A DNA stretch of 64,000 nt from a virus: positions 60,222-124,221 of the IMG/VR virus record IMGVR_UViG_3300026183_000930. The stretch is one strand, 5' to 3'. The position numbers were made by a program, and so were the translations under genes. Positions within the stretch are counted from its first letter, which is position 1; every line of letters begins with the position of its first letter. This document shows positions 38,438-56,603 of the stretch, piece after piece. The notes below the pieces were generated by a model, which saw only the letters and a program-made list of their open reading frames with translations, ran no database searches and was not told the DNA's origin.

Positions 38438-38513
38438 GATTTATTTTAAATATTCAACAACAACAGAGCTGAGATCCATAATAACATCAGAAATAAAACC
38501 GGCTTTGGATTTA

Positions 38514-39678: not shown

Positions 39679-39692
39679 TATTTTTCCTTTTT

Positions 39693-39767
39693 TGGAGCGG
39701 GCGATCGGGGTCGAACCGACGACCTATTCGTTGGCAACGAATCGCTCTACCACTGAGCTACGCCCGC
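39693..39767 (-). tRNA. tRNA-Gly(GCC)
   Basis: Complete cloverleaf on the minus strand: acceptor GCGGGCG/CGCCCGC, D-arm GCTC..GAGC, anticodon stem ATTCG/CGAAT with loop TTGCCAA (anticodon GCC), T-arm GTCGG TTCGACC CCGAT, discriminator T, and an encoded CCA (39693-39695). It has its own promoter 14 bases upstream. Confidence 0.95.
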
Positions 39768-39780
39768 CTAACTGTTTAAC

Positions 39781-39808
39781 AGTATAACACATAGTACTTA
39801 TAAGTCAA
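39781..39808 (-). promoter_or_regulatory. Sigma70-like promoter for tRNA-Gly
   Basis: The minus strand reads TTGACT, 16 bases, TATACT; the expected transcript start is a few bases before the tRNA 5' end at 39767. The rest of the gap, 39809-39905, has one late-type ATAAATA (39898-39904) and no gene. Confidence 0.7.
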
Positions 39809-39896
39809 GTAAAAACTGTATATCAATGTATAAATGTGGAAAATCAACTATTTTTTTGGATTAATCAAAGCCTCTCTTCTAAGATGGCTACTAATA

Positions 39897-39905
39897 TTAT
39901 TTATC
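39897..39905 (-). promoter_or_regulatory. Late-promoter-like motif upstream of tRNA-Gly/methyltransferase
   Basis: The minus strand reads GATAAATAA at the end of the oxygenase gene, 130 bases before the tRNA. It may give late expression of the tRNA and methyltransferase. Confidence 0.4.
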
Positions 39906-40508
39906 CTAAAACAAATTCATATCAAAATTTAAAACGGTAGCAACCAAGTGTACTCTATCTTCTTCTCCACCATTAAATGCATTATGATATTTTGTGTTGT
40001 CAGTTACCCAAACATGACCATCTGCTGGCATGTGATGAACTACTTTGTCAACACACATTCTTGCTCCATAGTTTGTAACTATGGGTATATGTATTCTAGG
40101 CTCTGGATCTCTATGCCAACTCAATGTGGTTCTTGGTAACTTCCATAACAATCTAATTCTACCAATCTGATATTTTTTACACAAAGTATCATATACATAC
40201 TTGAAATATGTATCTTCAAAAAGTTTTACAAACTGACTGTACTTTGTTTCATCTATTGGTTCTTCACGTTGCACTTCATTGTAAGTGCTGTCTGGTTTAG
40301 TCCAAAACAATCCTCTCACATTACCGCCTGTGATTGAATTTGGATCACCTGGTATTTGTGTCAAACAGATTGCATTGATATCTCTTTCACCCAATGGCGA
40401 CTGTCTTGCCACTCTTGAATCTACTTCTGCTAATGCTGATTGCAACTTTTTTATATCAAAATATATATCTGGATCTTGATAAAAGCCTTTTGGCCAAACA
40501 CTAGACAT
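39906..40508 (-). CDS. 2-oxoglutarate/Fe(II) oxygenase-like protein (Asp/Asn beta-hydroxylase type)
   Basis: 200 residues from ATG 40508 (MSSVWPKG); a TTG one codon earlier is less likely. Metal-site motif LSWHRDPEPRIHIPIV supplies HxD, and KYHNAFNGGEEDRVHLV the distal His plus a 2OG-binding Arg, the pattern of the aspartyl/asparaginyl beta-hydroxylase family. It overlaps the aldehyde dehydrogenase gene by 8 bases, so it belongs to the lysine-type cassette. It may hydroxylate an amino acid or a protein side chain. Confidence 0.7.
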   Translation of the reverse strand: MSSVWPKGFYQDPDIYFDIKKLQSALAEVDSRVARQSPLGERDINAICLTQIPGDPNSITGGNVRGLFWTKPDSTYNEVQREEPIDETKYSQFVKLFEDTYFKYVYDTLCKKYQIGRIRLLWKLPRTTLSWHRDPEPRIHIPIVTNYGARMCVDKVVHHMPADGHVWVTDNTKYHNAFNGGEEDRVHLVATVLNFDMNLF

Positions 40509-41871
40509 CAAACTTAATACCTTGTGCTAACGGCAATGACTTTCCATAGTTAATTGTGACTGTGCTTCTACGCATATATTGTTTCCAAGCATCTGATCCA
40601 GACTCACGACCACCACCTGTGTCTTTTTCACCACCAAAGGCTCCGCCAATCTCAGCACCACTTGGGCCAATGTTGACATTAACAATACCACAATCAGAAC
40701 CAGTTGCTGATGTAAACGTTTCTGCTTCTTGTACATTATCAGTGAATATACAAGAACTCAAACCTTGTGGTACACTGTTTTGTATTTCAATTGCTTCTTC
40801 TAAAGTATTATATTTCATAACATACAATATTGGTGCAAAAGTTTCAGTTTTTATAATATCACATTGTTCTGTGGCTTCAACTATTGCTGGGTTCACAAAT
40901 GAATCACCTAACGCAGGTAATGGTTCTCCGCCATACACTGTGTAATTTTTTTCTTTACACTCTTTTAAAACTGTCTGCATAGTTTTCAAAGACTCTTTGT
41001 TTATCAAAGGACCTACTAAATTCTTTTTATCTAAAGGATCACCAATTAGTAAACTTGCATATGATTTTTTTAATCGTTCTAACAGTTCATCATATTTAGA
41101 CCAATGCACAATTAATCTTCTTAATGTAGTACATCTTTGACCACATGTACCTACAGCACTGAACACAATAGCTCTAACTGCCAAATCTAAATTTGCATGT
41201 TCAGACACTATCATTGCATTGTTACCACCAAGTTCATATAAACCTTTGCCCATTCTTTCTGCTACCAACGGTGCTAAAGTTTTACCCATTTGTGTTGACC
41301 CTGTAGCACTTAACAAATTAATTCTTTTATCTTGTGCCATCCATTTTGCTTCCACATCATGACCTGTTATGATCTGCATTAAATCTTTTTGATACTGTTC
41401 GTCACACACACTGTCCCAAATTGATTTGCATAACATTGAAACTTTCATTGTTTTTGGAGAAGGTTTCCATAAAACACTATTACCACAAACAATTGCCAAA
41501 CAAAGATTCCATCCCCAAACTGCCACTGGAAAATTAAAAGCAGTGATCACACCAACCACTCCAATTGGGTTCCACACTTCTTGCAGTTTGTGTTCATTTC
41601 TTTCTGATGGCATTGTTTTACCGTACAGTTGTCTTGATAAACCAACTGCAAAATCACACATGTCTATGACTTCTTGTGCTTCACCAACACCTTCAATAAA
41701 AATTTTTCTACTTTCAAGTGTGATGCCTTTTCCTACCTCGTCAAGTCTTTCTCTTAATTTATTACCAAATTTTCTTATTAGTTCTCCACGACTTGGAGCA
41801 GGAACTGTTTTCCATTGTTTTTGAGATGCAATTGATTTTTCAATTGTGCTTGTATAATCTTTTACGTTCAC
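40501..41871 (-). CDS. Aldehyde dehydrogenase, ALDH7/aminoadipate-semialdehyde type
   Basis: 456 residues. Catalytic Cys lies in GTCGQRCTTLRRLIVH, almost the ALDH7A1 motif GQRCTTLRRL, and the general-base Glu in LYELGGNNAMIV. WNPIGVVGVITAFNFP is the NAD-binding start. It would oxidise alpha-aminoadipate semialdehyde to aminoadipate with NAD. Translation starts with GTG overlapping the saccharopine dehydrogenase stop by 4 bases (GTGA), so the two enzymes are co-translated in pathway order. The protein is about 10% shorter than bacterial homologues (around 500). Confidence 0.87.
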   Translation of the reverse strand: MNVKDYTSTIEKSIASQKQWKTVPAPSRGELIRKFGNKLRERLDEVGKGITLESRKIFIEGVGEAQEVIDMCDFAVGLSRQLYGKTMPSERNEHKLQEVWNPIGVVGVITAFNFPVAVWGWNLCLAIVCGNSVLWKPSPKTMKVSMLCKSIWDSVCDEQYQKDLMQIITGHDVEAKWMAQDKRINLLSATGSTQMGKTLAPLVAERMGKGLYELGGNNAMIVSEHANLDLAVRAIVFSAVGTCGQRCTTLRRLIVHWSKYDELLERLKKSYASLLIGDPLDKKNLVGPLINKESLKTMQTVLKECKEKNYTVYGGEPLPALGDSFVNPAIVEATEQCDIIKTETFAPILYVMKYNTLEEAIEIQNSVPQGLSSCIFTDNVQEAETFTSATGSDCGIVNVNIGPSGAEIGGAFGGEKDTGGGRESGSDAWKQYMRRSTVTINYGKSLPLAQGIKFDV

Positions 41872-42896
41872 AGATATACCTTTCCAAATTTATTGTTTGT
41901 AAATATTTTGTAGTCAATACTTTCTTGTGATATAAAACCTTCACCTACAAGTTCATTATTTGCATAGGCAGTGACAACTGAACATACTCCTGATGCTGTT
42001 GTTCTTTGTATAGCACTGTGTCCATCTTCACCATATATTTTTTTTGACCAAGTCTTTTCTAAAAGTTTGCCGTCTTTGTATCCAATTACTGATATTAACA
42101 TGACAACAACATCTGAGGTTGTATAAGGAACTTCTTGATCAAACAGATCTACAAATTTTTTCTTGTTGTGTCTTAAATTTAAATCATCTAATAAAAACTT
42201 CATCGATGCCTGATGACCTGGGTACCTAATAGTTTTATAACTTAAAGATTTTACTTTGTCAGCAAATGTTACACACATTGATGCTGAACCACCTGAAGTA
42301 TTAAATGCTTCATACCTGTCACCATCAATATAAATTTGTTCTAATCCATCTAATGGCTGAGTTTTAATATGCTTGTGGTTTGATAAGACATCACAGTCAT
42401 TCACATACTCATTGATTAATCCATCAGTTGACCATGTCAAATAATATGCCATAGCATTTGTTGGATATTTTGGTAATGCACCTACTCGCATTTTTACTTT
42501 GTCAACAGTGTCAAATTTTTTAATTAGATCTGATGCAATAATATTAACTGCACCCGGAGCCAATCCACACTGTGGCATCATAAAAGTTTTAGTGTTTAAT
42601 TTTCTAATGTGTTCTGAAACTTCTGTGTCTTCAGTTAGATCAAAATATGCTGTATCACAAATAGCACACATATCAGCAATACCTATATTCAAATGATACA
42701 GTGTTGCTGAAATAATAATATCTTTTTTTTCTACAAAACTTTTTAATTCTGTTTGATTTGATGCATCTAACACTGTGTTGTCAATATCTGTTTTTACCAC
42801 ATCTGTTATTTCAACATCAAATCCATGGTCACATAGATATTGATAAATTGTTTTACCAATTTTTCCAGCACCAATTATTCCTATTAACTTTGACAT
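41868..42896 (-). CDS. Saccharopine dehydrogenase-like oxidoreductase
   Basis: 342 residues. N-terminal Rossmann motif KLIGIIGAGKIGKTIYQYL, then FMMPQCGLAPGAVNIIASDL, the family segment where NAD(P) and substrate meet, and a C-terminal saccharopine-dehydrogenase domain (QRTTASGVCSVVTAY). It cleaves saccharopine to glutamate and aminoadipate semialdehyde, the substrate of the next gene product. Lysine-ketoglutarate reductase, which makes saccharopine, is not in the window. A late promoter and AAAGGACA ribosome site precede it. Confidence 0.82.
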   Translation of the reverse strand: MSKLIGIIGAGKIGKTIYQYLCDHGFDVEITDVVKTDIDNTVLDASNQTELKSFVEKKDIIISATLYHLNIGIADMCAICDTAYFDLTEDTEVSEHIRKLNTKTFMMPQCGLAPGAVNIIASDLIKKFDTVDKVKMRVGALPKYPTNAMAYYLTWSTDGLINEYVNDCDVLSNHKHIKTQPLDGLEQIYIDGDRYEAFNTSGGSASMCVTFADKVKSLSYKTIRYPGHQASMKFLLDDLNLRHNKKKFVDLFDQEVPYTTSDVVVMLISVIGYKDGKLLEKTWSKKIYGEDGHSAIQRTTASGVCSVVTAYANNELVGEGFISQESIDYKIFTNNKFGKVYL

Positions 42897-42929
42897 TTAT
42901 TGTCCTTTTTGTTAATTATTGTATTAACG

Positions 42930-42938
42930 TTATTTATC
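42930..42938 (-). promoter_or_regulatory. T4-type late promoter for the lysine-type cassette
   Basis: The minus strand reads GATAAATAA, 34 bases before the 42896 ATG, with an AAAGGA ribosome site between. It overlaps the stop region of the small membrane-protein gene. Confidence 0.6.
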
Positions 42939-43171
42939 TACTTTTTTTCTTTAATATTTTTAAGTGTTTTTACTTTGGTTCGTAATCTAATTAGATCATT
43001 GTCAAGCATTCTTACTCTGTCAATTAATTTGATTAATGTGCCTGATGCAGATCCTAATTTTGGTTTAATTTCATTCACAATATACTTGTACAAATAAAAT
43101 ATAAAATAAGCCAAAAAGAATACTGCCACAATTGGAAATCCATAATAGTTTATTAATTCTACAATATTCAT
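42938..43171 (-). CDS. Small one-helix membrane protein (77 aa), paralogue of next gene
   Basis: 77 residues. N-terminal NYYGFPIVAVFFLAYFIFYL forms one transmembrane helix (about 9-30); the rest is a charged coiled coil (RVRMLDNDLIRLRTKVKTLK). Layout and the G-(F/L)-P-I segment match the upstream neighbour, so the pair looks like a tandem duplication. A holin-like role is possible. Confidence 0.55.
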   Translation of the reverse strand: MNIVELINYYGFPIVAVFFLAYFIFYLYKYIVNEIKPKLGSASGTLIKLIDRVRMLDNDLIRLRTKVKTLKNIKEKK

Positions 43172-43449
43172 TAGTCTTTCCTTGCGTCTTCTTTGCCATC
43201 TGCTCTGGCTATTCTATCTGTATCAACTGGTAAGCCAAGTTGTTCTGAAACTTCATTGTCAATTTTAAGTATATCATTGTTCATTGTTTTTATTCTATTA
43301 TCTAATTGTTCTGCAACTGTTTCAATGAATTTGATTGATGACACAATACTACTTAGAATGTAATTTATAACAATCATTATAAAAACGCCAGATGCTACTG
43401 CGGCCGCTATAGGCAACCCTAAATCAGCAATAACTGTCCAAAAGTCCAT
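43171..43449 (-). CDS. Small one-helix membrane protein (92 aa)
   Basis: 92 residues with LGLPIAAAVASGVFIMIVINY as a transmembrane helix (about 10-33) and a coiled-coil cytoplasmic part. It overlaps the downstream paralogue by one base (TAATG). The GLPIA motif before the helix recurs in small marine phage membrane proteins, often tentatively called holins. Confidence 0.55.
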   Translation of the reverse strand: MDFWTVIADLGLPIAAAVASGVFIMIVINYILSSIVSSIKFIETVAEQLDNRIKTMNNDILKIDNEVSEQLGLPVDTDRIARADGKEDARKD

Positions 43450-43464
43450 GTTTTAAATACGCAA

Positions 43465-45492
43465 TTATTTTGTAGTTGCTACGTATACTCCATTCCAAGT
43501 TTTAATTTTTTGTTGCTCCATATTAATTATTCTTTGAAGCATTACATTATAGTACTTATCCAATATTTGAGGATATCGAGTTGTAATTTGTTCAATTTGT
43601 TGTCTAGCATTTATCCATTGTGCATTTCTATAAAACTTCAAAAAATCATTGTGTTTATTAAAAAATTCACTATCAACACTTTCAAATAATACTGTGTATA
43701 TAGTTACTGGTTCTGTTTTACCTTTGACTGCTATCATATCTAACTCAATAAATTTATATGCATCTGATACTGATGTTTCGCCTACTAATAATGTTAATCC
43801 GTATTCTTTACTTTGTCCTTCTAAACGTGCCGCTAAATTGACTGCATCGCCAAGAACACTGTAATCAAATCTTTGGTTTGAGCCCATATTGCCAACAACA
43901 ACACTACCAGTATTAATACCAATACCAATCTTAATTGGTAAGAGACCTTCATTTTCCAATTCCTTGTTAAGTTTTGCTAATGCTACAAACATTTCATTGG
44001 CAGTTTTGATTGCTAATTGTTTTTGTTGAGGGACGTCTAATGGTGCATTCCAAAACGCCATAAGAGCGTCACCAATGTACTTGTCAACAGTTCCATCATT
44101 TTTCATAACAATGTCCGTCATTGGTGTCATATATCTATTAATAAGTTTTGTCAATCCTTGTGGATCTGTTTTATATTGTTCACTAATTGGAGTAAATCCT
44201 CTTATGTCACTAAACAATATTGTTAATTCTCTTGTGTCTCCACCAAGTTTTAGTAACTCTGGATTCTTTTGTAATTTTTTAACCATAGCAGGTGCCAAAT
44301 AATGTTCAAATTGTTTTTTGATTTGTTGTTTGAGTTGAAACTCTTTTACAAATCTATTAAACACTGCATGAAACGAAACTATTGTGGTTACTAATAGTAT
44401 CCAACTCACATCCCATAACTGTAGATGTCTTGTGAACACAAAGTACGAAGCATAACTTGAGCCTGCCCATAACAAAACTATCGCCGCACCTGTTAACCAA
44501 TATGGTGCAAACGCCGCCATTACAATTAATAATACTGCTAATATACCTGCTGTGACATATTCAACAAATGTTGCATAGTCTGTTCGTACTATAGAGTCAC
44601 CATTTATAATTGTTTGTAAACTCACTGCTATTGGAGTGTGACTGTATGCTTCACCGTTGGGTGTTGCTATGATAGATCCTATTCCTTCTGCTGTGATACC
44701 AAGTATCACAGTTTTGCCTTGTACAGATTCAAAACTGTCTGTAACACTTATTGTTTCAAACTGTTTGTTCCAACGCAACCATATCTGTCCGTTGGCATCT
44801 GTGTTGATTACAGGATATCCAGGAACACGAACTGCTTGTACACCACCTGGTCCTGCTTTGACTTGATAACTTGGAGCACCTGTGGCCACACGTATTGTTT
44901 CAATGGCTATGGCAGGATACGTTTCACTATCAACTGTAACAATCAAAGGCACACGTCTTACCACACCATCAATTTCTGGTGCTGTGTTGATTACACCTAC
45001 ACCGTCTGCATTTAATCCAAACAGTTCTATAGGTCCCAACATACCTGGCCATTCAAACAACCAAGACAGCGGATCACCTATTTTGGCAACACCTCTTGGC
45101 ACAGCATTACGATTGGTTTGTGTTGTGCCTACCTGTGCTATAACAACACCATTTTGAACCAGTGCTTCTGCAAGATCCATGTCGCCACCCAGTCTGTCTT
45201 GTTCTGAAAACAGTATAGGTAAAATAATAAGTCCTGCACCTGCTTCACGCAACTGCCATATGATGTCTGCTATAACTGTTCGTTTCCATGGCCATTGTCC
45301 ATATTGTTCAATTGACTTTTCATCTAGTTCAACTATCACAACGTCATTGCTGACAGTTGGTGCATCATATTTTTGAATTAGATCAAATGTTTTTAGCCTG
45401 GCAGTTTGTTTTACAAAAGGATCCGAAAACCCCCACAGCATCAAACCTGTCAGTGTTAAAAATGCTACTGCCCAGTGTGTTAAGTATTTCAT
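43465..45492 (-). CDS. CHASE2-domain adenylate cyclase (class III)
   Basis: 675 residues. TM1 (about 5-21), an extracytoplasmic CHASE2 sensor (about 30-300), three more helices (about 310-378), then a class III cyclase domain (about 420-600). Catalytic residues are present: metal Asp429 in LFSDIRGF and Asp475 in KYIGDALM, purine-selecting Lys471, Asn552 and Arg556 in GDAVNLAARLE. It should therefore make cAMP in response to an envelope signal. CHASE2 cyclases and FecR proteins often occur together in bacteria. Here it sits beside FecR and curli-type genes. A receptor cyclase in a phage is, to my knowledge, very unusual. Confidence 0.9.
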   Translation of the reverse strand: MKYLTHWAVAFLTLTGLMLWGFSDPFVKQTARLKTFDLIQKYDAPTVSNDVVIVELDEKSIEQYGQWPWKRTVIADIIWQLREAGAGLIILPILFSEQDRLGGDMDLAEALVQNGVVIAQVGTTQTNRNAVPRGVAKIGDPLSWLFEWPGMLGPIELFGLNADGVGVINTAPEIDGVVRRVPLIVTVDSETYPAIAIETIRVATGAPSYQVKAGPGGVQAVRVPGYPVINTDANGQIWLRWNKQFETISVTDSFESVQGKTVILGITAEGIGSIIATPNGEAYSHTPIAVSLQTIINGDSIVRTDYATFVEYVTAGILAVLLIVMAAFAPYWLTGAAIVLLWAGSSYASYFVFTRHLQLWDVSWILLVTTIVSFHAVFNRFVKEFQLKQQIKKQFEHYLAPAMVKKLQKNPELLKLGGDTRELTILFSDIRGFTPISEQYKTDPQGLTKLINRYMTPMTDIVMKNDGTVDKYIGDALMAFWNAPLDVPQQKQLAIKTANEMFVALAKLNKELENEGLLPIKIGIGINTGSVVVGNMGSNQRFDYSVLGDAVNLAARLEGQSKEYGLTLLVGETSVSDAYKFIELDMIAVKGKTEPVTIYTVLFESVDSEFFNKHNDFLKFYRNAQWINARQQIEQITTRYPQILDKYYNVMLQRIINMEQQKIKTWNGVYVATTK

Positions 45493-45493
45493 A

Positions 45494-45820
45494 CTATCCT
45501 ATTAGTACTAGTGTTGCTTCACCTGAAATTAAACTGACTAACACACTTACAATTAACCAAACCAAAAGTGTATAACCAACCCACCAATACCATTTTTTAC
45601 CTGTTAAGAATTTTTTAGTTGCACGTTTTGTACCTAATGGATCTTTTGATGCCGCCCAGCCAAATACTCTGTCACTGCCTGAAAACGGAGGCGTCTTCCA
45701 CCATACCACAGGAATCATCAGCCAAAATATCCAGCCTTCTCCTGTGCCCCATGCGGCCCATATTCCTACAGCAAGTATGCCTAGCAAATACCATCCAATG
45801 TTTTGTTTTAGATGTTCCAT
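45494..45820 (-). CDS. Small integral membrane protein (108 aa)
   Basis: 108 residues from ATG 45820. Three hydrophobic segments (about 9-25, 29-42, 78-102), with a basic loop (KRATKKFLTGKKW). A TATAAATA late promoter ends exactly 5 bases before this ATG, which decides the start against a longer frame beginning at 45889. It precedes the cyclase gene by one base. Unknown function; perhaps a cyclase or secretion partner. Confidence 0.6.
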   Translation of the reverse strand: MEHLKQNIGWYLLGILAVGIWAAWGTGEGWIFWLMIPVVWWKTPPFSGSDRVFGWAASKDPLGTKRATKKFLTGKKWYWWVGYTLLVWLIVSVLVSLISGEATLVLIG

Positions 45821-45824
45821 ACTA

Positions 45825-45833
45825 GTATTTATA
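45825..45833 (-). promoter_or_regulatory. Perfect late promoter TATAAATA abutting the 45820 start
   Basis: The minus strand reads TATAAATAC TAGT ATG: consensus late promoter, 5 bases from ATAAATA to the start codon, leaderless class. It would drive the membrane protein and the adenylate cyclase late in infection. Confidence 0.75.
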
Positions 45834-45840
45834 TGATGTT

Positions 45841-47319
45841 TTAATTTTGTGTTACTGTGGTTGTGCCACAACCTGACGAATTCACACAACTTTGTGTTAA
45901 TGAATATGTTTGATTACTGGAACCTGTTTGATCTAGATCCAGTGTTGATGAATATCCACTCATGTCAATGGTTGCTGACATGTTGCCAGAACCGTCTTGA
46001 TTTACATCTATGGTTTGATTACTGCCTGCTGTGACATCTAAAAAATGTTCTCCAGTGCCTTGTTGTATAAGATCAATGTCATTTGAAGAACCATTTATGT
46101 CTACAAACATGATCTTGTCACCATCGTCTTTTTGATCCATATACATGATATTGCTGTTGCCATCAACATCTACACTCATAAAATGACCTTCATCGCCAAC
46201 ACCCATACCATCGTTTTCCTGTAGAACACCCACTGTGTTGTAATTACCTGTGACATCAAGTATCAATCTAGAATCACCAGCATCGTCTACGTTGTCACCT
46301 TGTCTCACAGTTAAATTATTATTATTACCATTCACACCCATTAACACCACATTGTTGTCGCTGACTGAACCAGCATTGTTACCTTGTGTGATTAACACAG
46401 TGTTGTCATCACCTGATATCACAGCATCAGCAATAGTAGAACTTGTGGATGCGGTACCTGCCACAAGATTGTCATTGTCATACTGCACAATGTCCAAATC
46501 CAAATTGTCACCTGCTTGATCAATGTAGATAGCATTGCTGTTTGATGTGATGTTTCTTGTGTTGTCAACTATGGTTTGTTGTGCTGAAGTTATGCTTGAT
46601 GAGTATGTAGGTGTTGATGAATACAGGCCTTCTTGTTCCATCGTGGTTGTGAGGAACGTTGTCATGTTCGAAGTGTTGCTTATGTTTGTCTGGAACTGAT
46701 CATATCCCATGGCAACTATTATGCTACCACCGTTGGATCCATAGTCCCATTTATACCAAGTGTGCCAACTACTGCCATAGGAGTTGGATGCCATTGCTGT
46801 TCCACCCGTGGCGTTAAACAGTTGACCCGCTCCTGGCAATGTTGTTTGATATGCTGTGGCGTAATCACCCACTGTTATACTCTGCCAACACAGGTCTATG
46901 TTACAGGTGCTGGTGTTATAGGTCATGGTTCCTACACCCATCTTGTTTTCAATCAAGGACTCGATGGTGCTCTGTCTGTTGGAGGCTCCTTGTGGTGCGG
47001 CTATGATAAGTTTGCCTCCGCCACTCACATAAGTGTCATACACTGAACGACAGGTGCTACCACAGTTGGATGTGCCTGCTATGTCAATCACCAGTTCCTT
47101 GCCTGATACATCATTTGAACTTACTGAATTTGAAGTGCTACCTGTAACTGTAAAGTTTAAACTTTCAAGGTGTGACTTTAGTCGACTGTATTCAGCACCA
47201 GTGTCTGATGAGTTGTAGTATATGAATGCGTCATTGGCCTTGGCATTGTTACTAATTGCCATAAAAACAATTATGCCAAACAGTATAAAAGCCAATCTTG
47301 TTATTAATCTTTCAAACAT
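45841..47319 (-). CDS. Secreted curlin-repeat protein with N-terminal flavodoxin/GATase-like domain
   Basis: 492 residues. A signal peptide (about 1-28) precedes a domain of about 220 residues with an alternating strand/helix pattern (LKSHLESLNFTVTG, LVIDIAG, GGGKLIIAAPQGA) resembling the class I GATase/ThuA-like fold. The second half (about 260-492) contains repeats of the curlin type, (L/V)-x-I/V-x-Q-x-G-x-x-N, e.g. IYIDQAGDNLDLDIVQ and IDVNQDGSGNMS. This should be an extracellular amyloid-forming subunit or nucleator with an added domain. It starts by TAATG overlap with the FecR gene. Confidence 0.72.
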   Translation of the reverse strand: MFERLITRLAFILFGIIVFMAISNNAKANDAFIYYNSSDTGAEYSRLKSHLESLNFTVTGSTSNSVSSNDVSGKELVIDIAGTSNCGSTCRSVYDTYVSGGGKLIIAAPQGASNRQSTIESLIENKMGVGTMTYNTSTCNIDLCWQSITVGDYATAYQTTLPGAGQLFNATGGTAMASNSYGSSWHTWYKWDYGSNGGSIIVAMGYDQFQTNISNTSNMTTFLTTTMEQEGLYSSTPTYSSSITSAQQTIVDNTRNITSNSNAIYIDQAGDNLDLDIVQYDNDNLVAGTASTSSTIADAVISGDDNTVLITQGNNAGSVSDNNVVLMGVNGNNNNLTVRQGDNVDDAGDSRLILDVTGNYNTVGVLQENDGMGVGDEGHFMSVDVDGNSNIMYMDQKDDGDKIMFVDINGSSNDIDLIQQGTGEHFLDVTAGSNQTIDVNQDGSGNMSATIDMSGYSSTLDLDQTGSSNQTYSLTQSCVNSSGCGTTTVTQN

Positions 47320-48413
47320 TATTTTTGTATGATGTTGATATCATTACCACCACCTTCTCCTATAATAAAATCTCTTGTAGTAAAATCATCTTGTTGTAGA
47401 TCAAGTGTGTAACTGTAATTTTTATTCAGTCTTAACTGTACCACACTGGATGATCCTTCACGTCTAAAAAACCAATTTGATCCTTGATCTAGCAATATGA
47501 TATTGCCTGGTAGTTGTCCTACTTGCTGTTGTTTTTTCACAAACACATCAGTTAGTTCACTCAAAAATTCTGCCGCTAATATTTTGTTTAATTGTGCTAG
47601 TACATCTCCCAAAAAGTCACCTGCTAAAAAATCAATGTCTAGTTCTGTTTGCCACTGTTGATCATCTTGTGCTAGTAGGTCTTGGTCTAGCACATCAATT
47701 TCTAAAAAGTCTAATCCTAATATATCTGCTACAGATCGAACAGATTGTTCATCTTCTAGATCGTTAATTTCTCTTGGTGGCGACACAATCAACAGATTGC
47801 CCAACAGTGATTCATCTATTTCTAATGTTATTGCAGGTGTGGGCCTGCGTTCTGCTACTTCAACTCTGGTGGCTTGAAATGCTTGATTTAGTATGACCTG
47901 TCCCATAGCCGAATCCACTGTGATTTCACCTACCACACAGTTGCCATTTGAATTACATGAAGGCAATAAAATAATTGTTGATCCACCCAACTCGTCTACA
48001 ATCATAGCAAAGTCTGTGCCACGCACACCAATTGTTGCTGTGGGTGTTTTTATTTTGACATTGTCTTTGTAGTCTTTGGCAATTTGACCTGATGCGTATC
48101 TCACTGTGCCCAATGCGGCTGTGAGTGTTAGTCCACCTTGATTGTTGGCTGGATCATACACAAACTCGTCTATAATAAGTTTTGAATGTTCTGTGACTTC
48201 TACTCTGGTGTCGTCAATAAAGTCAATGGCAGTTCTGCCTTGACCTGTCATTACTTCATCATAGGAAAACACATCAAGACTCTGCTCAAGATCAATTTTA
48301 GCACCATCTGTGCGTTTGATCTTGCCTTTGCCTTCTAGCTCGCTCACAGCACCAATACTGGCCTGTGCTGACCATGAGAATAAAATCAAAAATAATGATA
48401 ATATAAATTTCAC
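47319..48413 (-). CDS. Secreted FecR-domain protein
   Basis: 364 residues. Signal peptide KFILSLFLILFSWSAQA, then a FecR domain (about 20-190) with the typical GKIKRTDGA, FIDDTRVEVTEHSKL and IKTPTATIGVRGTDF motifs. It lacks the N-terminal cytoplasmic anti-sigma helix and transmembrane segment of true FecR, so it is a periplasmic/surface FecR. The C-terminal part is acidic with LL-repeat stretches. The GTG start lies 3 bases after the curlin gene. It could sense or scaffold assembly of the curli-like fibre. Confidence 0.82.
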   Translation of the reverse strand: MKFILSLFLILFSWSAQASIGAVSELEGKGKIKRTDGAKIDLEQSLDVFSYDEVMTGQGRTAIDFIDDTRVEVTEHSKLIIDEFVYDPANNQGGLTLTAALGTVRYASGQIAKDYKDNVKIKTPTATIGVRGTDFAMIVDELGGSTIILLPSCNSNGNCVVGEITVDSAMGQVILNQAFQATRVEVAERRPTPAITLEIDESLLGNLLIVSPPREINDLEDEQSVRSVADILGLDFLEIDVLDQDLLAQDDQQWQTELDIDFLAGDFLGDVLAQLNKILAAEFLSELTDVFVKKQQQVGQLPGNIILLDQGSNWFFRREGSSSVVQLRLNKNYSYTLDLQQDDFTTRDFIIGEGGGNDINIIQK

Positions 48414-48415
48414 AG

Positions 48416-49126
48416 TTAGTCACTTTGTGTTATATCTACATCAAAACTATCGCCATTAACTGTTAGGTCAACTGTGTTGTCGTAGATACCACTTTGAGTA
48501 ATATCAATTGTTCCACCTCCACCATCTACATCTAATGTGATAGTGTTTCCTGCTGAATCACCGTTGCCAGTTTGTGAAGTTGTTAGTGCAACACCTTCAT
48601 CTGAATTAGCACTGGTTGTGGCCAATGAAGAACTATTGTTAATGTCAACTGTTAGTGCGGCACTTTGACCATCAACTGTTGAATTTATAATACTGTTGTC
48701 ACCAGTAACTGTGAAAGCCACTGTTGAGCTGTCTGAGTCAGCAGTTTCACCTATACGTATTGTATAGTCGTTGCTGTCACCAGTATTAGTAATATTCAGT
48801 GTCACAGTGTCACAGTTTCCTGCTGATGTACTAGAACATAACAAGTCTACTGTGTTTGACCCACCGGTAAATGTCCAAGTACCTGTATATGTGTCACCTT
48901 TGATTGTTGCATCAATTGTGTTGTAACTACCAGTTTGTGTAATTGCAAACGTCATGCTGTCACCTTGCAGTGTAGCATCAGTTGTTGAATCACCAAATTC
49001 GTTATCTTGACCATCTTGTGTGATATCTAAATCTAAATCATCACCTATTTGATCAATGTAGATATCATTTGCTACCAATGATGTTCCAAACATTGATAAC
49101 AACAATATTAAAATTAATCTTTTCAT
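48416..49126 (-). CDS. Curlin-repeat protein (CsgA/CsgB-like)
   Basis: 236 residues. A signal peptide (about 1-19, LILILLLSMFGTSLVA) precedes imperfect curlin repeats, e.g. IYIDQIGDDLDLDITQ, MTFAITQTGSYNTIDA and IDITQSGIYDNTVDL, with Gln-x-Gly-x-x-Asn spacing, ending VDITQSD. These repeats form beta-solenoid amyloid in curli. It overlaps the csgG stop by 4 bases (ATGA). It is Asp/Thr-rich and longer than CsgA (151), so its subunit role is inferred. Confidence 0.8.
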   Translation of the reverse strand: MKRLILILLLSMFGTSLVANDIYIDQIGDDLDLDITQDGQDNEFGDSTTDATLQGDSMTFAITQTGSYNTIDATIKGDTYTGTWTFTGGSNTVDLLCSSTSAGNCDTVTLNITNTGDSNDYTIRIGETADSDSSTVAFTVTGDNSIINSTVDGQSAALTVDINNSSSLATTSANSDEGVALTTSQTGNGDSAGNTITLDVDGGGGTIDITQSGIYDNTVDLTVNGDSFDVDITQSD

Positions 49127-49962
49127 TTACTTTCCTCTCTTATGTTGACCTGGGGATTGTTAATCTGTGAATCAATTACAATTGCTTTGTAATTCCAAAG
49201 ACCTTTAGAATGTCCAAGTTCAACTAAATCGCAGACCGCCTGCTCTATTGCGGCTCTTACTGCATAATTAACTGGTTCATTAACTGCCGTACCTGCTTCT
49301 ACTTCAATTAGTTTAGTGCCTAGGTCTAAAAATTTAAACACATCAGCACCAGTAGAATAACTGGCAATGTCTTTTTGTGTAGCAACAGAAAGAAGTACTT
49401 CTCCTGTGCTTACTGAAACAATACGCATGGACACTGTTACTGTGTCAACACGATATTGAGTTTTGGCACCAATACCTAGGTATCGTGCACCAGAGCCGCC
49501 TGTGACCACATTTGAATCATAGCCTACCACGGCACCTTCTACAATTAAACCAGCAAAAAGTAAAGGTTTTAATTTTTTATCTTTTTCGTCTTCATACTGT
49601 TCTCTGGTTGAACGAATCAATTGTCGTTCTTTGACTAGATTGTCTAGTCCTCCTCTTTCAACAACTGTGAACCATGTGTTGTTGCCCACTTCTGACAGTG
49701 CTTGAATTACCCAAACTTCAGCACCTTGAGTTACAGCACTTGAAAGTTGTGAAAAGTTTTGACTTGGTTTACGTTGTCCTGTTTTGTCATTAAAACTGTA
49801 AACTGCTATTGTGATTTTTGGACCATCAAGTTCTGGTATTGCTTTGAACTGTTGTTGTAATGGTGCCACAGCAGTTTCTGGTGCTTTGAATCCGTTTACA
49901 CCGGCATGGCCGGCACATCCTGCCAAGGCTATCAATAATAACAAAGCAAATATCTGTCTCAT
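49123..49962 (-). CDS. csgG: CsgG-like curli secretion channel lipoprotein
   Basis: 279 residues from ATG 49962 (E. coli CsgG 277), after rejecting a TTG four codons upstream. Lipoprotein signal with lipobox LAGC, then the CsgG pattern: KITIAVYSFNDKTGQRKPS, FTVVERGGLDNLVKERQLI, LLFAGLIVEGAVVGYDSN, TVTVSMRIVSVSTGEVL and a C-terminal YAVRAAIEQAV. CsgG forms the nonameric outer-membrane pore for curli subunits. In a phage it may export the curlin-like proteins or act as a late-stage pore. Confidence 0.93.
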   Translation of the reverse strand: MRQIFALLLLIALAGCAGHAGVNGFKAPETAVAPLQQQFKAIPELDGPKITIAVYSFNDKTGQRKPSQNFSQLSSAVTQGAEVWVIQALSEVGNNTWFTVVERGGLDNLVKERQLIRSTREQYEDEKDKKLKPLLFAGLIVEGAVVGYDSNVVTGGSGARYLGIGAKTQYRVDTVTVSMRIVSVSTGEVLLSVATQKDIASYSTGADVFKFLDLGTKLIEVEAGTAVNEPVNYAVRAAIEQAVCDLVELGHSKGLWNYKAIVIDSQINNPQVNIREESK

Positions 49963-49963
49963 A

Positions 49964-50422
49964 TTAAAATCCAAAATCTCCTACTGGCACAGTAAGTGTT
50001 GTTATAGTACCATCTGCTTCTGTGATTCTAATTGATATTTCACCTAGGTCTACATCTTTTTCCCAATAAATGGTGGCACCTTCTATTTCAGCAGTGCCTG
50101 TGGTTTGTCCTCCTGATGAGAACATGTTGTCTACCAACTGTTTAGATAGGTTGGCATAGATTCTTGATTCCACATTGGCAATGAATTTGTTTATTACTTC
50201 ATTATTTTCATCACGTTCTGCGTCTCTGAGTTTCTTTTCTATGTCTTTACGTAATTCTTCTTTACGTTGAAATTGCAGTTGCTCTGTGGCTAACACATGA
50301 TTTGAATAGCCATTTCCTGAAAAACTAGGATTTGAAAATTCTTGTGTTAATTCGCTCGCCTGAATAGAACTCATAGAAGCAACAAACGTCACAAAAATGC
50401 TGTAATATATATATTTTTTCAT
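49964..50422 (-). CDS. csgF: CsgF-like curli assembly factor
   Basis: 152 residues (E. coli CsgF 138). Signal peptide (about 1-23), then the CsgG-binding N-terminus LTQEFSNPSFSGNGYSNHVL, matching CsgF's FxNPxFGG pattern, a helical middle and a beta-type end (TITTLTVPVGDFGF). CsgF caps the CsgG pore and couples it to nucleation. It stands one base upstream of csgG, the usual F-G order. The ribosome site is weak. No late motif is obvious in its 100-base upstream gap. Confidence 0.85.
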   Translation of the reverse strand: MKKYIYYSIFVTFVASMSSIQASELTQEFSNPSFSGNGYSNHVLATEQLQFQRKEELRKDIEKKLRDAERDENNEVINKFIANVESRIYANLSKQLVDNMFSSGGQTTGTAEIEGATIYWEKDVDLGEISIRITEADGTITTLTVPVGDFGF

Positions 50423-50526
50423 AATTTTAATCTAAATAAATGTAGTTATAACTATTTAAGTTATGAAGATTAAGGTTATGTTTATACTTTATTTGAGAAG
50501 GTGTTTATTTTAGTTTTTTTTTGATG

Positions 50527-50602
50527 TGGTGGAGGATAGCGGGATCGAACCGCTGACCTCCTGAATGCAAATCAGGCGCTCTCCCGGCTGAGCTAATCCC
50601 CC
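50527..50602 (-). tRNA. tRNA-Ala(TGC)
   Basis: Complete cloverleaf on the minus strand: acceptor GGGGGAT/ATCCTCC (one G-U), D-arm GCTC..GAGC, anticodon stem CCTGA/TCAGG with loop TTTGCAT (anticodon TGC), T-arm AGCGG TTCGATC CCGCT, discriminator A and encoded CCA. It lies 4 bases after the oxygenase stop, so it is probably processed from that transcript. The stretch 50423-50526 behind it is AT-rich with no gene. Confidence 0.95.
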
Positions 50603-50606
50603 ACAT

Positions 50607-51158
50607 TTACCCAGAAATAATTGTTTTAACATCATTAAAACTATATTCTGCTGGAATGCTCCAACTAATAGAGCTTCTTGGTAATTTACTATTGCTATTT
50701 ACTAATACTTCATGTGGATATTCAGTATTAAACAGTACCGGATCAGTTAAGCAAAATCTATATACTTCTTTGATATCTTCTTTTTTGACAGGAAATGACC
50801 AGAAACCAGATCCTAGATCATCTATGATATCTTTGCGTTCTTTGTCAGTTAATTTTTTTATGAACTCATAAACCACTGTTTCACTGTCATTGCAGTTCCA
50901 TAACGGAATGTTTATTGTGCATTTTCTAGGATTGTCAACGTGTAACGGTAATGATTCAACCATGTCATAAAAATTATACAGTTCTCCTAAAAATGGATAT
51001 TTTTCCATTAGAAAAACCATGTATGGTTCTTTGTTTGCTGATCGTTGAAAATGCCCAAGTCCCTCTTCAATATCATTTTTGCGTCTGTGATATATCATTT
51101 GCATTTCATTGATATCACAAAAACTCTCATCTAATGTAAAAACATATTGGTTGTTCAT
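50607..51158 (-). CDS. 2OG/Fe(II) oxygenase-like protein
   Basis: 183 residues. Possible metal and cosubstrate residues: LHVDNPRKCTINIPLW gives HxD, YPHEVLVNSNSKLPRSSISW gives the distal His and an Arg. This spacing is typical of small 2OG oxygenases in T4-like marine phages. Substrate unknown; not obviously paralogous to the oxygenase at 39906. Confidence 0.6.
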   Translation of the reverse strand: MNNQYVFTLDESFCDINEMQMIYHRRKNDIEEGLGHFQRSANKEPYMVFLMEKYPFLGELYNFYDMVESLPLHVDNPRKCTINIPLWNCNDSETVVYEFIKKLTDKERKDIIDDLGSGFWSFPVKKEDIKEVYRFCLTDPVLFNTEYPHEVLVNSNSKLPRSSISWSIPAEYSFNDVKTIISG

Positions 51159-51177
51159 TTTAATATAACTCTAATAA

Positions 51178-51411
51178 TTATTTACTAAATTTACGCCAAG
51201 TAGTGTGTAAAATATAAAACCACACACCATTAATACAGGGTTCTACAAGAGCATTTAAAGCCGCAAGATTTAAAGTGGTACCAGTTATAAAATAAGTTGT
51301 GGTCATTGCTATAACAATATGACCAAATGTATAAATTAATGCCAATGTTAAAGACGACTTAGTCATTAACTTCTTAAAAGTATTGAAAATACCATTATTA
51401 AATTCACTCAT
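51178..51411 (-). CDS. Small membrane protein, DUF2061-like
   Basis: 77 residues, two hydrophobic segments (about 20-40, 46-66). KSSLTLALIYTFGHIVIA, TYFITGTTLNLAAL and FYILHTTWRKF resemble the DUF2061 pattern (conserved Lys, T-G, and a terminal H-x-x-W). Biochemical role unknown. It has its own TTGACA/TATAAC promoter. Confidence 0.6.
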   Translation of the reverse strand: MSEFNNGIFNTFKKLMTKSSLTLALIYTFGHIVIAMTTTYFITGTTLNLAALNALVEPCINGVWFYILHTTWRKFSK

Positions 51412-51417
51412 TCTAAT

Positions 51418-51446
51418 GTTATAACAAACTTTTATCTAGTTGTCAA
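51418..51446 (-). promoter_or_regulatory. Sigma70-like promoter for the DUF2061-like gene
   Basis: The minus strand reads TTGACA, 17 bases, TATAAC, with the -10 box 6 bases from the ATG at 51411. The transcript would have almost no leader. Confidence 0.55.
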
Positions 51447-52195
51447 GACAAAAAACTTGTGGGCTTGGTTGTGGAATAACCTAACTTTTCCAACAAACTT
51501 TTATCTAAATGCTTGTCTACTACATTAATCTGTTCTTGGGTCAAAGTTTTTATATTATTGGAGTCCCAATAATCTTGAATTTTTTTATTTCTTAATGATT
51601 CTGTCCAGTTTTCACTCAATGTGACATGAGCAGGAATAACCAAATGCGAATGTTTAATTATGTTCCATTTGTATACTTGACTTAAATCTTCTATGAACTG
51701 TAAACAGTTTTCTAAATCTAACAGTGTTTCATATTTTACTAGATTCCAATTTTTAATTTTTGGTTGAAGATTAATCCAATTGTTATAAAATTCATTGTAC
51801 AATTTTACCAATTCAACAAGATTAATTTTTTCAAGTTTCCAAGAATTATTCATGTTTTTCTTTGTCAAAGTGCTGAATTCTAATATGTGATCATGTGGAA
51901 GAGCATCTAAATCATACAGCACTTGAGGTCTACGTATTTTGATGTCTACAGGATTTCTTAAAATACTTTCAACCCATTTGTATGGATTTTTTGAAACCAA
52001 AATATGTGCGTGATTTTCTTTTTTTTGTTTTTTGTATAACTTGTAAACAAACTCAGTGTCAGGTTCATGTTTCCATGCATACTTGATCAAACTTTGATCT
52101 AGATTTAAACTTTGAAAATTGTTGATAACTAACTGGTGAGTAAAGTTAGTTCCAGTTCTTTGTAATCCAAACACAGTGAATGATTTGACCAACAT
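51443..52195 (-). CDS. Sulfotransferase-like P-loop protein
   Basis: About 250 residues from ATG 52195; a TTG six codons upstream is less likely. TVFGLQRTGTNFTHQLV near the N-terminus is the 5'-phosphosulfate loop of PAPS sulfotransferases, and ILVSKNPYKWVESI stands where they have the 3'-phosphate-binding Arg/Ser helix. The target may be a glycan or small molecule on the surface or virion. The loop is convincing; the rest is diverged. Confidence 0.65.
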   Translation of the reverse strand: MLVKSFTVFGLQRTGTNFTHQLVINNFQSLNLDQSLIKYAWKHEPDTEFVYKLYKKQKKENHAHILVSKNPYKWVESILRNPVDIKIRRPQVLYDLDALPHDHILEFSTLTKKNMNNSWKLEKINLVELVKLYNEFYNNWINLQPKIKNWNLVKYETLLDLENCLQFIEDLSQVYKWNIIKHSHLVIPAHVTLSENWTESLRNKKIQDYWDSNNIKTLTQEQINVVDKHLDKSLLEKLGYSTTKPTSFLS

Positions 52196-52202
52196 AACAT
52201 AA

Positions 52203-52508
52203 CTATTTAACAATCCTTAAAGTCATGCCATCTAAAGCATCTGTTAATTGTATTTGGCAACTCAACCTACTGTTTTTGTTTCTGTCTTCACTGTCTAACA
52301 ATGCATCTTCATCTTCATCCATTTTGGGTAACAGATTCAAATACTGATCATCAATTTTGACATGACAAGTGGCACAGGCACAACAGCCTCCACACATCAT
52401 AAAGTTGTCTGGTGAAATTTCTTTTTTGATCACTGAAGCCAACGTTTCATATGATTGTGCTTCAATTACATGCTCTTTGTCGTCTCTGTCAATTACTGTT
52501 ATTTTCAT
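52203..52508 (-). CDS. [2Fe-2S] ferredoxin, adrenodoxin type
   Basis: 101 residues. The ligands CGGCCACATC give C-x5-C-x2-C and the last Cys is in SRLSCQIQL, which is the adrenodoxin/bacterial Fdx spacing. It could supply electrons to QueE or oxygenases, and receive its cluster via the IscA-like protein. It has its own promoter, just after tRNA-Asn. Confidence 0.9.
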   Translation of the reverse strand: MKITVIDRDDKEHVIEAQSYETLASVIKKEISPDNFMMCGGCCACATCHVKIDDQYLNLLPKMDEDEDALLDSEDRNKNSRLSCQIQLTDALDGMTLRIVK

Positions 52509-52514
52509 AATGTT

Positions 52515-52543
52515 AATGTAAACTATAAATGTGATCTTGTCAA
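52515..52543 (-). promoter_or_regulatory. Sigma70-like promoter for the ferredoxin gene
   Basis: The minus strand reads TTGACA, 17 bases, TACATT, between tRNA-Asn and the ferredoxin ATG. The -35 is perfect, the -10 is weaker. Confidence 0.5.
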
Positions 52544-52551
52544 CTGTTTTC

Positions 52552-52627
52552 TGGCTCCTCGGGCAGGACTCGAACCTGCGACCAATTGATTAACAGTCAA
52601 CTGCTCTACCAACTGAGCTACCGAGGA
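52552..52627 (-). tRNA. tRNA-Asn(GTT)
   Basis: Complete cloverleaf on the minus strand: acceptor TCCTCGG/CCGAGGA, D-arm GCTC..GAGC, anticodon stem GTTGA/TCAAT with loop CTGTTAA (anticodon GTT), T-arm GCAGG TTCGAGT CCTGC, discriminator G and encoded CCA. It lies 13 bases from tRNA-Thr and is likely part of the same transcript. Confidence 0.95.
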
Positions 52628-52640
52628 ATATGCTCTAGAA

Positions 52641-52716
52641 TGGTGCCGGCAGAGAGATTCGAACTCCCGACCTGACGATTACAAATCGCCTGCTCTACCA
52701 ACTGAGCTACGCCGGC
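52641..52716 (-). tRNA. tRNA-Thr(TGT)
   Basis: Complete cloverleaf on the minus strand: acceptor GCCGGCG/TGCCGGC (one G-U), D-arm GCTC..GAGC, anticodon stem GGCGA/TCGTC (one mismatch-like G-U) with loop TTTGTAA (anticodon TGT), T-arm GGGAG TTCGAAT CTCTC, discriminator A and encoded CCA. Confidence 0.95.
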
Positions 52717-52725
52717 ATTAAAGTT

Positions 52726-52754
52726 ATACTACTATAACTATTCAGTTTTGTCAA
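52726..52754 (-). promoter_or_regulatory. Sigma70-like promoter for the tRNA-Thr/tRNA-Asn pair
   Basis: The minus strand reads TTGACA, 17 bases, TAGTAT (a TATAAC lies 3 bases on). It overlaps the end of the 52738 gene, and the tRNA begins 10 bases past the -10 box. Confidence 0.6.
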
Positions 52755-53028
52755 CTGAATCCTGTTCAGATTCTTTGTTGACTGTCATTGATGATTCCAT
52801 GTAATCTGCAACTACTGATATATTTTCTTTTGCTTTGGTAATTTTTGATGCTACCCAACCTTCAAGGTTGTCGCCTTTTTTAATCATTTCAATTAATTTG
52901 ATAGCATCTTTGGCAATGTGATATAACTGACCTCTAGCCATTGATGCCTCGTGATCATGCTGACCATAGTCACGATCTAATTCATAATGATTTTGTGTTG
53001 CTTGTTTCCATTTTCTAATATCGTCCAT
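52738..53028 (-). CDS. Conserved marine T4-like phage helical protein (96 aa)
   Basis: 96 residues. It carries the motif ARGQLYHIAKDAIKL, then LEGWVASKITKAKENISVV, a helical pattern (QLYKIAK ... LEGWVQSKITKASDYI) that I recall in many cyanophage proteins, apparently as an oligomerisation module. Role unknown, likely virion. It follows the 60-aa gene with a one-base overlap. Confidence 0.6.
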   Translation of the reverse strand: MDDIRKWKQATQNHYELDRDYGQHDHEASMARGQLYHIAKDAIKLIEMIKKGDNLEGWVASKITKAKENISVVADYMESSMTVNKESEQDSVDKTE

Positions 53029-53210
53029 TATGCTTTCTCCTTGGCTTGTTTTGTTATAGTTGCAAAATATGCCTGCTCACCTCTCTCTGCTCCATATTGA
53101 TCAATGAAATTCTGTTTCATGTCTGTCTTATCATATTTTTTCTTAAGAGATTCACGTTTGTTGTATTCTGCTTTGGTAAGTTTTCGTTCAGTGATATCTT
53201 GAATTAACAT
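53028..53210 (-). CDS. Small basic late protein (60 aa)
   Basis: 60 residues, MLIQDITERKLTKAEYNKRE, highly charged and helical, ending TKQAKEKA. It carries the short N-terminal M-x-(I/L)-x-(D/E)-(I/L) tag of this cluster. The TATAAATA late promoter ends 5 bases before the ATG, with no ribosome site. Confidence 0.6.
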   Translation of the reverse strand: MLIQDITERKLTKAEYNKRESLKKKYDKTDMKQNFIDQYGAERGEQAYFATITKQAKEKA

Positions 53211-53214
53211 AGTA

Positions 53215-53475
53215 CTATTTATAGATGTCTTTTACTTTTTTAGTATATGCTAGAGTGTCACCACTGTGTCCCATTTTGTAAGGTTTCATTTTGAGTTTTT
53301 TACCGTGAAATATATGACCCATTGGATCTATAGCACGTCTGGCTGTGGCATGATGTGCCGCACCTTTTTGCCCTGTGAAAAGTGGCATGGCAATTGAAGC
53401 CATCACACCTGATGTTGTTGCACCAGCAGTTGCGTCTTCATTAATTTCTATATTAAATATTTCAGCTATTAACAT
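53215..53475 (-). CDS. Small late protein with N-terminal tag (86 aa)
   Basis: 86 residues, MLIAEIFNIEINEDATAG, then a Gly/Ala-rich hydrophobic stretch (GATTSGVMASIAMPLFTG) and a basic C-terminal half with several His (AAHHATARRAIDPMGH). It has an AAGGA ribosome site and an upstream late promoter. Unknown, probably virion. Confidence 0.55.
   Translation of the reverse strand: MLIAEIFNIEINEDATAGATTSGVMASIAMPLFTGQKGAAHHATARRAIDPMGHIFHGKKLKMKPYKMGHSGDTLAYTKKVKDIYK
53216..53223 (-). promoter_or_regulatory. Perfect late promoter abutting the 53210 start
   Basis: The minus strand reads TATAAATA GTACT ATG, a perfect consensus with the 5-base spacing of the leaderless class. Confidence 0.75.
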
Positions 53476-53494
53476 AATGTATTCCTTACTAAAG

Positions 53495-53502
53495 TATTTA
53501 TC
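53495..53502 (-). promoter_or_regulatory. Late promoter (leadered) for the 53475 gene
   Basis: The minus strand reads GATAAATAC, 19 bases before the ATG, with AAGGA in the leader. Confidence 0.6.
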
Positions 53503-53527
53503 TTATGTTTTTAGTTTGAGTGTTTAA

Positions 53528-53845
53528 TTAAACTGAAATTTCTTTGTCTTTGTTGGTTTGAATCTGTTTTTCTAGTTCTTTTTGCTTTTTTTCGTTTTCA
53601 ATGTCTTGCATCATTTTAAGTAATTTTTCACCAACAGATTTAAATTCTTGATACTTTGGATCATTTAAAACTTTGTCACTTAAAAACTTGTCCATAAAAT
53701 CAAAATTCTGTGGTATTTCATTTGGCCATGCTTTGGTAGGAAAAGCACCTAAAGCCAATGCACCCATACCTGCCACAGCAGATTTTCCCATGGCTTTCAT
53801 AAAATTTCTTCTGTTGTTCTCTGTTGTGATTTCACTTATTCTCAT
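53528..53845 (-). CDS. Late protein with twin-arginine-like segment (105 aa)
   Basis: 105 residues. The N-terminal tag MRISEITTEN is followed directly by NRRNFMKAMGKSAVAGMGAL, a good match to a twin-arginine (Tat) signal: RRxFxK, hydrophobic core and AFPTKA cleavage-like end. The remainder is a coiled coil. It would be exported folded if the signal works; alternatively, the hydrophobic stretch serves in the virion. It overlaps the SOD-like gene stop by 4 bases. Confidence 0.55.
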   Translation of the reverse strand: MRISEITTENNRRNFMKAMGKSAVAGMGALALGAFPTKAWPNEIPQNFDFMDKFLSDKVLNDPKYQEFKSVGEKLLKMMQDIENEKKQKELEKQIQTNKDKEISV

Positions 53846-56598: not shown

Positions 56599-56603
56599 AA
56601 TAA

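Follow-up and report, generated by a model that had tools for sequence, protein, structure and literature searches.

Why would a virus carry the genes for curli, together with a membrane receptor that makes a second messenger? This question is raised by a 64-kb stretch of DNA (the window, whose numbering is used throughout) from the 124,221-base virus record IMGVR_UViG_3300026183_000930 (positions 60,222 to 124,221). Seven genes lie there in one run on the minus strand (50422-43465), separated by tiny gaps or overlaps, and encode CsgF, CsgG, a first curlin (curlin-1), a FecR-domain protein, a second curlin (curlin-2), a small membrane protein and a cyclase with a CHASE2 sensor (CHASE2-cyclase). 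An earlier, sequence-only reading had described a curli-like operon with FecR and a CHASE2-cyclase in a phage, and all seven genes are indeed present at 50,422-43,465; CsgF, CsgG, FecR, curlin-2 and the CHASE2-cyclase exceed the curated Pfam cut-offs. In the reading we propose, to which we assign a probability of roughly 55%, a jumbo phage expresses these genes during infection as a cassette for surface adhesion that it can do without, with the CHASE2-cyclase as a sensor.

Part of the evidence for this proposal comes from relatives that have no curli at this place. Directly behind the cyclase lie two small genes, tmA and tmB, and a scan with tmA returned contigs in which this protein is 67-85% identical to that of the window. 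Where these contigs are complete enough to read (L173/L263, L264, L266 and L268, with partial L168, L169, L182, L187 and L189), the place of curli ahead of the cyclase is taken by a FecR-domain adhesin of ~1,200-1,370 residues. Beside it are encoded a TolC-family protein, an ABC membrane protein of the type I secretion system (T1SS) type without ATPase domain, an adaptor of the HlyD type and, in most cases, a small membrane protein, while the cyclase and tmA/tmB are kept. The adhesin of L173 combines an N-terminal FecR domain, 39% identical to that of the window over 153 residues, with cadherin and RTX domains; for the accompanying proteins of this group the T1SS TolC and HlyD families of NCBIfam scored best, below their cut-offs. 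A scan with TolC returned at least six loci. CsgG was not found in 11 T1SS-type records of up to 148 kb, and several of these contigs share more genes with the window record, such as an endonuclease (74-77% identity). The T1SS membrane protein itself is peculiar: in L173 (13736-14485) and its relatives, this protein of ~250 residues matches only the transmembrane part of LssB/PrtD exporters, and no ATPase domain was seen in it or in the neighboring genes.

Since curli are swapped for an unrelated adhesin beside the same cyclase, the function under selection would be adhesion or display and not the formation of a pore. On this comparison of gene content, adhesion or display is more likely than the two pore functions proposed before. 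The Melnitz paper of 2022 proposed a role in lysis (PMC9004378), in which CsgG/CsgF, as a gated pore or an analogue of pinholins, would time lysis and aid virion release. Curli genes are absent from the host clades of Melnitz and the pelagimyophages (PMC9004378), which fits this idea, as do the weak holin- or spanin-like PHROG matches of tmA and tmB, small proteins with one transmembrane segment. In addition, contig L080 has a spanin pair resembling Rz/Rz1 (26-797, recognized by eye) directly upstream of tmB-CsgF-tmA-CsgG, so that the module stands beside a lysis cassette. However, the lysis proposal took the curlin subunits to be missing (PMC9004378), whereas they are present, conserved, under purifying selection and equipped with domain-bearing heads. 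Where the whole module has been lost, tmA/tmB are still there, and a T1SS adhesin standing where the pore would be fits poorly. We therefore regard a function in lysis as unlikely. An uptake pore, in which CsgG admits larger molecules during infection (PMC7029224), is more improbable still. Such a pore might stay open, the gate protein CsgE not having been found, yet CsgF, the two headed curlins, the tail motif of the FecR protein and the replacement by a T1SS adhesin are all left unexplained.

The adhesion reading gives the secreted FecR-domain protein (364 residues; 47319-48413; Pfam FecR 2.1e-08) a central place. A conserved module with the order F-G-A/B-FecR-A/B-AC was described in 2022 for pelagiphages with podovirus and myovirus morphology, and was read as a curli operon whose regulators are an adenylate cyclase, a histidine kinase and a FecR protein that senses iron (PMC9599517). 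It was detected at 65 of the 65 stations surveyed, with parts expressed in marine metatranscriptomes (PMC9599517), and the FecR domain is present in the window protein, both by Pfam and in the predicted structure, in which Foldseek recognizes the periplasmic domains of FecR/PupR (4m0n, 6ovk). Nevertheless, the layout expected of a regulator, a cytoplasmic N-terminal anti-sigma part followed by an inner-membrane helix, is absent: the protein starts with a signal peptide (all signal peptides were called by eye only), its beta domain begins at residue 21 and there is no Pfam domain beyond FecR. Neither FecI nor a TonB receptor is found among the operon genes, the small neighbors lack a kinase domain and the FecR domain forms the N-terminus of a secreted adhesin in the T1SS-type relatives. 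Iron regulation thus appears improbable to us, to about the same degree as lysis.

The AlphaFold2 (AF2) model of this protein (mean predicted local distance difference test score, pLDDT, 75.6) consists of the FecR domain (~21-187), a disordered or helical linker (~207-294) and a C-terminal beta domain (299-364) that ends in a curlin-like strand, NDINIIQK. A curlin-like tail is present in 72 of 74 curli-linked FecR proteins against 14 of 83 other FecR open reading frames (ORFs), and a stricter version of the motif in 51/74 against 3/83; shuffles of the 74 proteins give 6.1 and 0.8, respectively. Q363 within the tail is invariant (28/28). Foldseek also aligned the model with 5ix9, a "cell surface anchoring domain" (probability 1.00, root-mean-square deviation 1.0, TMt 0.76, E 2.2e-3, 62 columns). 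This entry was deposited as an antifreeze protein, and we take it to be the anchoring region of the RTX ice-binding adhesin of Marinomonas. The missing regulator features, the curlin-like strand at the end of the protein and the likeness of its model to the anchoring domain of an RTX adhesin together favor a role as fibre anchor over one in iron regulation.

LapA and the Marinomonas adhesin of 5ix9 are RTX adhesins retained or anchored by an N-terminal domain. The phage system would share with this class the anchoring domain at an outer-membrane channel, and PA14 ligand-binding domains occur in both. The window differs in having a curli pore with separate fibre subunits in place of one giant protein, and a cAMP-type cyclase instead of the cyclic di-GMP-based LapD/LapG switch. 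A TolC-like channel retains adhesins of the LapA type, whose control runs through a nucleotide-signalling receptor (PMC6890996). A broader model, which we put forward tentatively and rate at somewhat less than even odds, is that of an interchangeable display cassette of jumbo phages: the FecR anchor, CHASE2-cyclase and tmA/tmB would be constant, and either curli with swappable lectin-like heads or a T1SS RTX adhesin would be attached to them. FecR would then be a shared periplasmic anchor read by CHASE2, forming a cyclic AMP (cAMP) analogue of the LapA/LapD checkpoint in phages as well as bacteria.

Swappable heads are indicated by the second curlin (492 residues; 45841-47319; Pfam Curlin_rpt 3.1e-06, above the cut-off). 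Its AF2 model (pLDDT 67.7) has an N-terminal flavodoxin-like head (~28-235) and a beta solenoid of curlin repeats (~262-492); a fold search gave nothing below 0.001 and suggests a flavodoxin-like nature of the head. Curlin-2 of HTVC008M and of contigs L009, L029 and L196 carries a PA14 head above the Pfam cut-off, that of L221 an F5/8-C discoidin head and that of one further phage a weakly matching ThuA-like head, while several further heads match no named domain and some curlins of this type have no head. In RTX adhesins, PA14 is a sugar-binding domain (PMC6650083). Between the window and contig L008 the number of synonymous substitutions per site (dS) reaches 1.40 in the head but only 0.14 in the repeats, and the head has therefore been exchanged. 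Curlin-2 is thus probably a ligand-binding subunit with an exchangeable and often lectin-like head. Curlin-1 (236 residues with a signal peptide; 48416-49126), whose Curlin_rpt match (0.0015) lies just under the Pfam cut-off, corresponds to the protein annotated as curlin minor subunit CsgB in HTVC008M. Compared to L008 it shows 0.025 nonsynonymous substitutions per site (dN) at a dS of 0.17, and purifying selection extends to FecR, the cyclase and the curlin-2 repeats (dN/dS ~0.08-0.2 for all four).

The putative sensor is a protein of 675 residues (43465-45492) composed of a CHASE2 domain (Pfam 5.8e-41) and a class III nucleotide cyclase (Guanylate_cyc 3.4e-22), the latter matching adenylate cyclases of the PDB at down to 4e-38. 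The window enzyme apparently is intact, as judged from its catalytic residues: the metal-binding aspartates D429 and D475, the substrate lysine K471 and the transition-state residues N552 and R556. D429, K471 and D475 are kept in 81 of 81 aligned phage relatives. Positions 545 and 552 covary perfectly, with D-S in 36 sequences and T-N or S-N in the other 45, including the window, which divides the predicted catalytic sites of phage CHASE2-cyclases into two types. As a serine replaces the usual catalytic asparagine at 552 in those 36, not all of the phage cyclases may be active. FecR, the cyclase and tmA/tmB accompany the module in all of the 25 distinct phage loci whose flanks reach 9 kb or more downstream and 1.5 kb or more upstream of csgG; the set in distinct phage loci reads F-G-curlin-FecR-(curlin)-cyclase. 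Many loci of Alphaproteobacteria and other bacteria (L090-L163) also have genes for FecR-domain proteins a few kb or less from those for CHASE2-cyclases, with no curli, which suggests that the FecR-CHASE2 pairing is a general one.

TmA (92 residues; 43171-43449; PHROG 18771 1.7e-27) is a coiled-coil protein with one transmembrane segment, and tmB (77 residues; 42938-43171; PHROG 18771 3.4e-26) is its paralogue. Both follow the cyclase directly, so that the unit reaches further in the 3' direction than the seven-gene run of the sequence-only reading, down to 42938; the run as such stands. Pfam detects no kinase domain in either of these proteins of 77-92 residues and no domain at all in tmB, although, judged by position, they would be the genes labelled HK in PMC9599517. 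In the collection of phage records tmA matches only HTVC008M and Melnitz, both carriers of curli. We considered tmA/tmB as obligatory parts of the module, but their survival next to deletion scars in some contigs weakens this view. In L223 (4734-5120) a single ORF joins the N-terminus of CsgF in frame to the C-terminus of the CHASE2-cyclase, with tmA/tmB intact alongside, and in L237 and L200 remnants resembling CsgF adjoin tmA/tmB. These scars show that the cassette is dispensable and that tmA/tmB can outlast it.

For the cassette as a whole we envisage the following organization. By homology, curlin-1 and curlin-2 would exit the periplasm through an outer-membrane pore of CsgG and CsgF and then assemble. 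The FecR protein would serve as anchor or nucleator on the periplasmic side: the FecR domain at its N-terminus may remain by the secretion channel while the curlin-like strand at its C-terminus joins or templates the fibre. The CHASE2-cyclase in the inner membrane would sense the FecR anchor, and hence whether a fibre is displayed or not, and respond by making cAMP, as the conserved pairing of both genes suggests; cAMP would then report display or contact. Infected cells might aggregate or adhere to other cells or surfaces, or competing phages might be blocked. The sequence-only reading had likewise supposed a putative surface amyloid with cAMP signalling.

Several points weigh against this picture. 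Contact between FecR and CHASE2 is a prediction from gene pairing. The likeness to 5ix9 rests on a predicted model and only 62 columns; at the sequence level it was reached at an E-value of 0.18 through the FecR domain of the L173 adhesin, and a search of PDB sequences with the FecR profile or protein of the window gave no match. The head of the window curlin-2 is a low-confidence flavodoxin-like model and not a proven lectin. No clumping was seen in cultures infected with Melnitz (PMC9004378). Finally, no CsgE gate was matched in the 124-kb record (the E. coli control was positive, and the record may be incomplete), although CsgE is missing from alphaproteobacterial and pelagiphage modules as well (PMC9599517). 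On balance, surface adhesion is still the best reading of the operon and is moderately supported.

The remaining genes agree with a curli secretion system. CsgF (152 residues, secreted; 49964-50422; Pfam 3.4e-14, above the cut-off; PHROG 35372 1.1e-51) retains the N-terminal F-x-NP-x-F-x-G motif. CsgG, an outer-membrane pore lipoprotein with the lipobox LAGC (49123-49974, probably starting at the ATG at 49962; Pfam 4.9e-57), matches the solved E. coli CsgG in the PDB at 1.5e-51 over residues 5-262. The small membrane protein (131 residues; 45494-45889) has no Pfam or PHROG match and was not found in L007, HTVC008M and Melnitz. For this gene the limits given earlier need revision: an internal ATG at 45820 is the more likely start, as the resulting form of 108 residues (45494-45820) is 99% conserved in L008. 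A tRNA-Ala(TGC) found by ARAGORN upstream of csgF (50527-50602, minus strand) also adjoins the module in the nearest relatives and is 97-99% identical in L005, L007 and L008. Compared to the csg operons of E. coli (type VIII secretion), the window has CsgG, CsgF and curlin-repeat subunits in common, but differs in that CsgE was not found, FecR and a CHASE2-cyclase lie inside the operon and one curlin has an N-terminal head.

Could the operon be a bacterial contig chimerically joined to a phage? Its G+C content (38%, compared to 35% elsewhere in the window) is the sole hint in this direction. Contig L004 is 99.9% identical over 46948-59974, which includes the upstream flank and the beginning of the operon, and L248 is 97.8% identical over 34645-44358, with the end of the cyclase gene and the downstream flank; L008, at 87-95% across most of 44336-50347, matches most of the interior. 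All three come from other metagenome assemblies. With either edge and the greater part of the interior thus present in independent contigs, the objection that the sequence-only reading had named against itself fails, and we reject the chimera. Dozens of phage contigs with homologous operons, among them one of 285 kb, also make its probability negligible.

The presumed carrier did change. The sequence-only reading had a usual marine myovirus in mind, whereas the DNA polymerase, Clp-type ATPase, sliding clamp and neighboring genes point to a jumbo phage resembling Sinorhizobium phage Phosso (469 kb) and Agrobacterium phage Atu_ph07 (490 kb). These two are nearest in polymerase and Clp ATPase, and 17 ORFs of the record match Phosso at 120-160 kb. 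Contigs with curli and the same polymerase type include L215 of 285 kb (58% identity), while the polymerases of other curli phages match in pieces only (26-40%). The carrier is therefore neither a podovirus of the HTVC023P type nor a pelagimyovirus, and the module sits outside the HTVC008M-type pelagimyophages and the podophages of PMC9599517. A capsid of the gp23 type, considered as lineage marker, gave no match, but neither did its control.

The sequence-only reading was right in proposing a phage-borne display operon of the curli type with a receptor cyclase. The order of these genes, which it suggested looking for in other marine myoviruses, exists in HTVC008M and Melnitz, and the complete set cannot count as undescribed: F-G-curlin-FecR-curlin-cyclase is annotated in both and published (PMC9599517). 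The presence of csgF/csgG in pelagimyophages, with aggregation for "sibling capture", was put forward in 2020 (PMC7029224), superinfection exclusion also belongs to the earlier literature on phage curli genes, and curli genes were reported from a Bacteroidetes-linked marine T4-like viral genome (PMC7198788). The pelagiphage type VIII module (PMC9599517; HTVC008M, Melnitz) and the window agree in gene order, in a CsgG identity of 53-58%, in the absence of CsgE and in small transmembrane genes nearby. In contrast, the window has a jumbo-phage carrier, an extra small membrane protein, a flavodoxin-like curlin-2 head and tmA/tmB encoded behind the cyclase in the same orientation.

A similar operon exists in bacteria. 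Two contigs from metagenome-assembled genomes (MAGs) of Caulobacteraceae (L086, L087) have CsgF-CsgG-curlin-curlin-FecR-CHASE2-cyclase in one run, flanked in L086 by ordinary bacterial genes. The FecR tail is curlin-like as in the window, but FecR is only ~35% identical overall (44% in the best segment), tmA/tmB are lacking and both curlins precede FecR. Of 299 genomes from the order to which L086 belongs, 10 match FecR at all at 1e-10, and only that of L086 itself does so over the full length; the bacterial operon is therefore rare there. Three contigs binned as Flavobacteriaceae, Pirellulales and Pelagibacter (L084, L085, L088) have a phage-type module, the first two with tmA/tmB, and are probably phage contigs binned into MAGs.

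Two further gene pairs on the minus strand deserve mention. At 40501-42896, an aldehyde dehydrogenase closest to L-piperidine-6-carboxylate dehydrogenase (699.5 bits, cut-off 730) stands beside a saccharopine-dehydrogenase-like protein, a possible lysine-degradation pair of the phage. At 24402-26870, a protein of the IMPDH/GMP-reductase family adjoins a permease of the xanthine/uracil type; the PHROG label "tail protein" (phrog_27398) at 25578-26870 was rejected, as this protein is the permease.

In summary, the window operon belongs to a known gene set, and what is new is its jumbo-phage lineage and the comparative context. Our literature search, which covered few subscription journals and preprints, found no published report of curli in jumbo phages or of a phage T1SS/FecR version. 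A known but unexplained trait of marine phages is thereby extended to a third phage lineage, and the published "iron regulator" can be re-read as a probable fibre anchor.

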